Shown: one piece after another, positions 12,901 through 13,519 of the stretch
Layout of the letters: each line of letters starts with the position of its first letter
Position numbering within the stretch: position 1 is the first letter of the stretch
Source: Neolecta irregularis DAH-3
Lineage: Eukaryota; Ascomycota; Neolectomycetes; Neolectales; Neolectaceae
Length of the DNA stretch: 20,664 nt
Assembly (NCBI GenBank): GCA_001929475.1
Contig: LXFE01000301.1
Location: 1-20,664 of the forward strand
Direction of reading: 5' to 3'
Program-made: the position numbers and the translations under genes
Notes under the pieces: model-generated
Seen by the model: the letters and a program-made list of their open reading frames with translations, nothing else
What the model was told of the DNA's origin: nothing
Database searches by the model: none

Positions 12901-13519
12901 TGGATGTCTGGGTTGGCGTTGAGGGTGTGGAGATTGGCGAGGAGCTGGTGTTAGCGAGAGTATCCGAGTATCTCAGCGAGTACCTGCGGTTAGCGAGTAT
13001 CCGAGTATTTCAGCGAGTACCTGCGGTTAGCGAGTATCTGAGGATCTAAGCGAGAACCTGCGGTTAGCGAGTATCCGAGTATCTAAGCGAGTACCTGCGG
13101 TTAGCGAGTATCTGAGGACCTAAGCGAGAACCTGCGGTTAGCGAGTATCCGAGTATCTAAGCGAGTACCTGCGGTTAGCGAGAGTATCCGGGTATCTAAG
13201 CGGGTACCTGCGGTTAGCGGCAGTATCTAAGCGAGTATCTAAGCGAGTACCTGGTGCTGGGTGACCGAGGCTGGCAGGTCAACGAGATGCAGGGCGATGC
13301 CTGCGTCCGCGGCTGCGCGCTGCTTCATGCGCACATACGTGGCCGAGTCCTGGCGCGCGCCGACCTGCACAATGGCCAGCGCAGGGGCAAAGCGCGGGTG
13401 CTGTGCGCGCAGGGCCGCGATGTCGGCGCACAGGCGGTCGCGGAGCGTGCTGCAGTCAGCACGGCGGGCAGGCACACGCACGCAGCGAGGGCAGAGCCGT
13501 CGAGGGTGCGGGCAGGCAT
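9933..13519 (-). CDS. ADE3/MIS1: C1-tetrahydrofolate synthase (trifunctional: methylene-THF dehydrogenase/cyclohydrolase and formyl-THF synthetase)
   Basis: Sixteen exons: 13519-13482, 13449-13251, 12944-12464, 12429-12036, 12004-11964, 11930-11829, 11794-11696, 11663-11453, 11417-11253, 11219-11090, 11056-11008, 10975-10746, 10714-10572, 10537-10252, 10217-10065, 10022-9933; 936 residues, full family length. It interconverts 5,10-methylene-, methenyl- and 10-formyl-THF, making NADPH and formyl groups for purine synthesis. The N-terminal domain (1-300) has the YxxxK signature (Y51, K55), VQLPLP and DVDGF (120-124). The synthetase domain has the P-loop TPLGEGKST (375-383), [14 protein letters not shown] and GLPTRPAY. 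Intron 2 is an array of eight tandem intron units (see repeat). Intron 13 starts with GC (10571) and intron 12 has a tandem acceptor. Its first three exons are much richer in G and C than the rest. An in-frame ATG at 13564 could add a mitochondrial-type presequence. Confidence 0.95.
12945..13250 (-). repeat. Tandem array of eight complete mini-introns filling intron 2 of the C1-THF synthase gene
   Basis: Read on the minus strand, exon 2 ends CACCAG at 13251 and exon 3 begins CTCCTCGCC at 12944. All 306 nt between are eight abutting units: 13250-13208 (43 nt), 13207-13169 (39), 13168-13132, 13131-13095, 13094-13058, 13057-13021, 13020-12984 (37 each) and 12983-12945 (39). Each starts GTACTCGCT, GTACCCGCT or GTTCTCGCT. 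Each ends with a branch-point-like CTAAC and an acceptor: CTAACCGCAG in seven units, CTAACACCAG in the last. Every internal junction is therefore CAG|GT, a complete splice-site pair with no exon. Unit length equals the normal intron length in this window (28-48 nt). Reading through from exon 2 meets TAG four codons into the first unit, so the array must be removed. It is 306 nt, so its length is divisible by three. Confidence 0.93.

Follow-up and report, generated by a model that had tools for sequence, protein, structure and literature searches.

The second intron of the C1-THF synthase gene of Neolecta irregularis DAH-3 divides at CAG/GT into eight abutting units of 43, 39, 37, 37, 37, 37, 37 and 39 nt, every one of which starts with GT and ends with CTAAC-NN-CAG, the CTAAC lying five bases before the unit end. 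Judging from the sequence, this intron is probably a minisatellite whose repeated unit is a whole spliceosomal mini-intron of about 37–39 nt, which would have grown by unequal exchange and would be removed in several steps. It is quite possible, on the same grounds, that it constitutes a commutative intron, that is, eight mini-introns with no exon between them, each of which could be spliced on its own, with one mRNA resulting whatever the order of removal and the size of the blocks. In that case, the array would be a minisatellite that changes by whole introns, and the protein would not register how many copies it holds.

The window (the whole stretch of DNA analysed, 20,664 bases) is an entire contig (LXFE01000301.1) of a genome of 8.96 Mb in 363 contigs (GCA_001929475.1). 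The gene was assigned from near full-length matches to Pfam PF00763, PF02882 and PF01268, which are all three domains expected of a C1-THF synthase, and its protein was 65–69% identical to the homologues among the matches listed (at least 120, none a self match). The genome contains one full-length copy, together with one distant partial match (30% identity). In a protein tree built with 30 of the at least 120 homologues listed, the sequence had a long branch (0.48) and was placed between the Mucoromycota and Ascomycota rows; support for joining the Mucoromycota rows was 92/89 (midpoint root), and this position is not decisive. The gene, the exons flanking intron 2 and the parts of the array are as follows.

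13564..9933, minus strand: coding sequence of the C1-THF synthase gene (spliced model, 15 introns, 951 aa)
13251..13449, minus strand: exon 2 (spliced model), ending in CACCAG
12945..13250, minus strand: intron 2, comprising the entire array, 306 nt, phase 0, with stop codons in all three frames
13208..13250, minus strand: unit 1, 43 nt, GTACTC .. CTAAC CGCAG, with extra 4-nt and 2-nt insertions
13169..13207, minus strand: unit 2, 39 nt, GTACCC .. CTAAC CGCAG
13132..13168, minus strand: unit 3, 37 nt, same sequence as unit 5
13095..13131, minus strand: unit 4, 37 nt, donor GTTCTC, one difference from unit 6
13058..13094, minus strand: unit 5, 37 nt
13021..13057, minus strand: unit 6, 37 nt, donor GTTCTC
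12984..13020, minus strand: unit 7, 37 nt
12945..12983, minus strand: unit 8, 39 nt, ending in CTAACACCAG, the only acceptor with an exon after it
12464..12944, minus strand: exon 3 (spliced model)

A preliminary description of this DNA had proposed eight abutting units of 37–43 nt in this intron, each with its own donor, CTAAC and CAG, joined as CAG/GT without any exon, and this proved exact at 12945–13250 on the minus strand. The array contains CTAAC eight times and CAGGT seven times, the latter corresponding to the seven inner joints with zero exon between the units, and eight of its nine GT dinucleotides are unit starts. The donors read GTACTC in five units, GTTCTC in two and GTACCC in one, and the joint between unit 8 and exon 3 reads CAG/CT. 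TRF independently reported a period of 37, with 7.8 copies and 88% matches. Removal of all eight units joins the codons CAG and CTC, and the resulting protein was free of gaps across this point in an alignment with 17 homologues (12 from named fungi and five unnamed). A reading of the array as a coding repeat was rejected because of the stops in all three frames. A tandem array has no inherent phase, so the equation of the unit with an intron depends on whether the edges of the array coincide with splice sites of the gene. Both edges do so, the start of the array being the donor and its end the acceptor of intron 2. Each inner joint fuses the end of an intron to the start of an intron, which would not result from the duplication of a segment smaller than the intron.

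The unit is similar in size to the ordinary introns of this genome. The other introns of the C1-THF synthase gene are 31–42 nt long (14/14, one of them GC-AG), so the agreement in size previously noted holds, but the range given with it (28–42 nt) was slightly too wide. In seven genes of the chaperonin family (PF00118), 18 of the 19 spacings estimated between adjacent matches were of 34–71 nt (median 37), and the single 7-nt estimate is probably an alignment gap; one gene's repeated weak match and two single-match loci were omitted, introns read through inside matches were uncounted, and several matches contain stops. For HSP70, match pairs examined by hand gave spacings of about 38, 35, 41, 32 and 88 nt (stops in the matches make the final two values uncertain), and the aminotransferase matches provided no pair usable for intron size. 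The 306 nt of intron 2 are therefore about eight times the usual intron length here. The earlier proposal of an intron-sized unit with a donor, a branch-like element and an acceptor of its own is supported, and the signals of the units resemble those of ordinary introns: the scores of six units fell at the 53rd to 60th percentile of 91 control introns and those of units 4 and 6 at the 21st, 77 of these controls having been partly chosen on the signals being scored. These 77 (25–60 nt, with strong flanking exons, outside the window) came from a crude gene finder and the other 14 from the C1-THF synthase gene. The gene finder was home-made and tuned on the latter gene, in which, at the chosen setting, it called 16 introns and placed 12 of the 15 real ones correctly, the 306-nt intron included; it was run on 18 of 20 sampled stretches (two N-rich stretches were omitted) and on the window, and it merges genes. 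Codon bias in this genome is weak. Among 121 well-flanked introns called in this way, 15 exceeded 100 nt, the intron 2 array being one; we think that most of these are errors and that some long introns may exist here.

With regard to the GC-AG intron, intron 13 (10571–10538, minus strand) was read with the donor GCAAGT, which kept the frame and gave the conserved STDTDAE stretch. The first GT-AG choice breaks the frame, and a 22-nt GT-AG alternative keeps it and adds four residues (by eye).

The array goes well beyond what chance would produce. The strict pattern CTAAC-N2-6-AGGT-N18-60-CTAAC-NNN-AG matched seven times in 8.96 Mb (both strands), always at the joints of the intron 2 array, with no match for the reversed form. 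A looser CTAAC pattern gave 12 matches, seven in the array and five elsewhere (reversed control, 51), and a looser CTGAC-type pattern gave 10, all outside the array (reversed control, 25); the matches outside the array look unrelated by eye. A genome search with a 291-base query from the array, in which simple repeats and very frequent words are passed over, found a single locus. Minisatellites are common in the sampled part of the genome: TRF returned 43 rows with a period of 20–120 in 213,822 bases (overlapping rows counted), and the intron 2 array is special among them, as the only one with an intron-like unit in some register. Dense clusters of different minisatellites within about 1 kb were observed in two of the sampled stretches (L026, 1437–2336, and L020, 792–1045), with no intron-like unit.

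The variation among units bears on how the array may have grown. Units 3+4 and 5+6 differ at one of 74 positions, so a recent duplication of a dimer is probable. In units 2–8, with the 2-nt insertion taken out, 10 of the 37 columns are variable, and none of these 10 falls on GT, CTAAC or CAG (P 0.024 under random placement). This support is modest, and the units are not independent; two of the 10 variable columns fall within broader elements comprising a six-base donor, a six-base branch and CAG (P 0.12), and two within the last 16 nt of the unit (P 0.085). The longer units (1, 2 and 8) are at the edges of the array. Long units at the edges and nearly identical dimers are expected if an array grows from the inside, and divergent edges with a uniform middle are a usual pattern for a minisatellite. 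An ordinary single intron, presumably present at first in one copy, would have been duplicated whole, with its acceptor fused to the donor of the copy; the array would then have expanded, with homogenisation of its middle by unequal exchange or slippage, and a late duplication of a dimer probably gave rise to units 3–4 and 5–6.

After splicing, the whole array would be absent from the mature message. We infer that it is removed mostly in several events, each taking one or a few units and following no fixed order, and that each CAG/GT would serve both as the acceptor for the preceding unit and as the donor for the following one. With such a dual use, the proper edge would be restored after each event and the reaction could continue. 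Given that introns near 37 nt are found in this genome, the nearest donor-acceptor pairs are the ones likely to be used, and the array would be cleared in steps. Blocks of consecutive units tile the array, so every complete route would give one mRNA. In 2000 simulated removals in random order, every block started with GT and ended with AG, and the joined exons were the product by construction; the same arithmetic applies to each of the 128 tilings of the eight units into blocks. As for incomplete routes, 254 of the 255 possible subsets of retained units bring in a stop within the retained part, and the remaining one (unit 7 alone) causes a frameshift. Any retained unit would thus introduce a stop or a frameshift, so full removal is needed and the route is free. 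No benefit to the cell is required for such an array; with no complete route doing harm, its presence may just be tolerated.

RNA folding provided no additional signal. The array folded more weakly than all 100 shuffled sequences (z 4.15), and this effect disappeared when it was compared with arrays of shuffled units (z 1.39; 186 of 200 folded at least as well); it is an artefact of comparing a repeat with non-repeat sequences.

The intron could be a single ordinary intron that happens to hold a minisatellite, spliced once between its outermost donor and acceptor, with the inner CAG/GT joints silent. This explanation makes multi-step splicing unnecessary, it accords with the abundance of minisatellites in the sampled bases, and in amphioxus the minisatellites known as mirages, which also carry copies of AG/GT, seem not to disturb regular splicing (PMC3087553). 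We nonetheless consider it unlikely, in view of the length of the intron, of inner sites that score like real ones, of a nearer donor-acceptor pair that is always on offer, and of the fact that just one of the 43 TRF rows has an intron-like unit. An artefact of assembly, with a real number of units lower or higher than eight, is highly unlikely. The array comes from one assembly in 363 contigs, and with units 3 and 5 identical and the two dimers differing at a single position, it is possible that one dimer was gained or lost in assembly. However, the 10 variable columns in units 2–8 and the two types of insertion provide unit-specific variants, and most copies cannot therefore be false duplicates.

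The repeat may also have preceded the intron. According to this explanation, which we regard as somewhat unlikely, a tandem repeat derived perhaps from the start of exon 3 arose first and was later spliced through the AGGT joints between its units, as in the expansion of dual-specific sites. The sequence concerned is:

12908..12944, minus strand: first 37 nt of exon 3, coding, with weak in-register similarity to the unit; possible source copy

Over its first 20 nt, the array agrees with the start of the downstream exon at 11 of 20 positions, a level that no control intron (of 91) attains, and over its last 15 nt it agrees with the end of the upstream exon at eight positions, a level attained by two of the 91. 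The in-register placement of the end units (19/35) was the best of 624 along exons 2–3 and was equalled by nine of 5000 shuffled units, and the score of the first 37 nt of exon 3 against the unit was reached by 7 of 2819 coding windows, itself counted. Such similarity in register is what a tandem duplication of exon sequence would leave, and we treat it as a lead. By contrast, with the consensus unit, the same placement shared first rank with another among the 624 and was equalled by 280 of 5000 shuffled units; shuffled exons equalled the in-register placement in 75 of 5000 cases, and a gapped local alignment of the unit with the exon was not significant (60/300 shuffles). For the 14 other introns compared with their own downstream exons, the equivalent window fraction ranged from 0.05 to 0.99. 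Furthermore, the exon sequence at the exon 3 joint does not read GT, and the presence of a normally spaced branch-like motif in all eight units better fits a repeat that was already an intron. The start of exon 3 as the source copy of the unit is therefore suggestive only, and we favour the multiplication of a whole mini-intron.

Recursive splicing at ratchet points is known from long introns composed of unrelated segments, whereas intron 2 is made up of eight copies of one 37-nt segment. The AG followed by GT inside the intron, with an upstream branch motif, that characterises a ratchet point was found at all seven inner joints. As in Drosophila recursive splicing and zero-nucleotide exons (PMC8605326), an acceptor abuts a donor, and removal of a segment would restore a donor.

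The preliminary description held that an array of this kind was without precedent. That was too strong, since the amphioxus mirages and the AGGT arrays of UBC are known, but an exon-free array of whole spliceosomal introns was not found among the open-licence papers listed, judged by titles and the openings of abstracts. The intron 2 array extends known kinds: mirages, dual-specific AGGT arrays and recursive splicing. Amphioxus mirages are minisatellites that repeat an intron-exon boundary with AG/GT in units of 10–160 bp; their middle units are homogenised, their edge units are divergent, and they have been proposed as a route to new introns (PMC3087553). The intron 2 array likewise repeats splice signals, with AG/GT in many units, a uniform middle and divergent edges. 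However, the mirages repeat one boundary and part of an exon, whereas the unit of intron 2 runs from donor to acceptor and includes a branch-like motif, with no exon clearly repeated; a repeat of the boundary including exon sequence is thus not what is found here.

In human UBC and other tandem-repeat introns, arrayed AGGT sites serve as both donor and acceptor (Duan et al. 2024, PMC10809524). The intron 2 array resembles these dual-specific sites in having AGGT at the unit boundaries and an intron that corresponds to whole repeat units, although the units are 37–43 nt long, so that the total of 306 nt does not divide evenly by 37. The repeat of intron 2 does not clearly reach into the exons, the nearest approach being the similarity at exon 3 considered above. 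UBC also differs in that its units are coding and its splicing varies the number of ubiquitin copies (PMC10809524), whereas the units of intron 2 are non-coding and any complete route would give one mRNA.

Stwintrons are, like intron 2, complex fungal introns with multiple intron units, and they are removed in consecutive reactions, as intron 2 probably is (PMC8469720, PMC7138796). In these, the inner intron lies within a splice element of the outer intron, whereas the units of intron 2 abut and none is interrupted. In the [D1,2] stwintron, the inner intron splits the donor, the sequence begins with GGT and the introns overlap by one G (PMC8469720). By these features, intron 2 does not belong to this class, since the array starts with GT and its AG/GT joints do not overlap. 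Introners and introner-like elements are inserted as similar copies in many genes throughout a genome (PMC9860276), and the single locus found with the array query does not agree with this. In the model of intron gain by tandem duplication (PMC4974935), the duplication provides a GT and an AG for the new intron, and the possible trace in exon 3 would be similar. That model yields one intron out of exon sequence, whereas a whole intron appears to have been multiplied in intron 2.

If the inner sites are used, intron 2 would be a natural test bed for the choice made by the spliceosome among eight nearly identical donor-acceptor pairs, and many junctions could be distinguished in intermediates and lariats, because the units carry variants. 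It would likewise reveal how a long intron is dealt with in a genome of mini-introns, and it would illustrate how an intron can multiply in place with the protein unharmed, a stage linking the growth of minisatellites to the evolution of introns. Should the outer sites alone be used, the array would serve just as directly to test why seven inner joints that look ordinary are passed over.

Several observations concern the setting of the array. Scans of the window for Rfam families (at the gathering threshold) and for tRNAs gave no matches. The third-position GC of the C1-THF synthase gene (13564–9933, minus strand) is 0.82 over the initial 300 coding bases and declines to 0.31 in the final block, and its highest values adjoin two minisatellites, the intron 2 array and a second one at 13584–13768 (TRF periods of about 25, 36, 62 and 86). 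This gradient would be consistent with biased conversion at a recombination hotspot. The second minisatellite occupies most of the 264-base gap between the divergent starts of the C1-THF synthase gene (13564, minus strand) and an isocitrate dehydrogenase gene on the plus strand (start at 13829 by eye; Iso_dh domain at 14940–15356). At the N-terminus of the C1-THF protein (13564–13520, minus strand), 15 additional residues, arginine among them, precede a second methionine, which aligns with the first methionine of 11 of the 17 homologues, and alternative starts could yield mitochondrial and cytosolic forms. Among the neighbouring genes at 1097–9770 of the window are those for a TRP-like channel, for a helicase (matched by Helicase_C and of DEAD-box type by eye) and for a protein that carries PRP39-type HAT repeats and is possibly a splicing factor.
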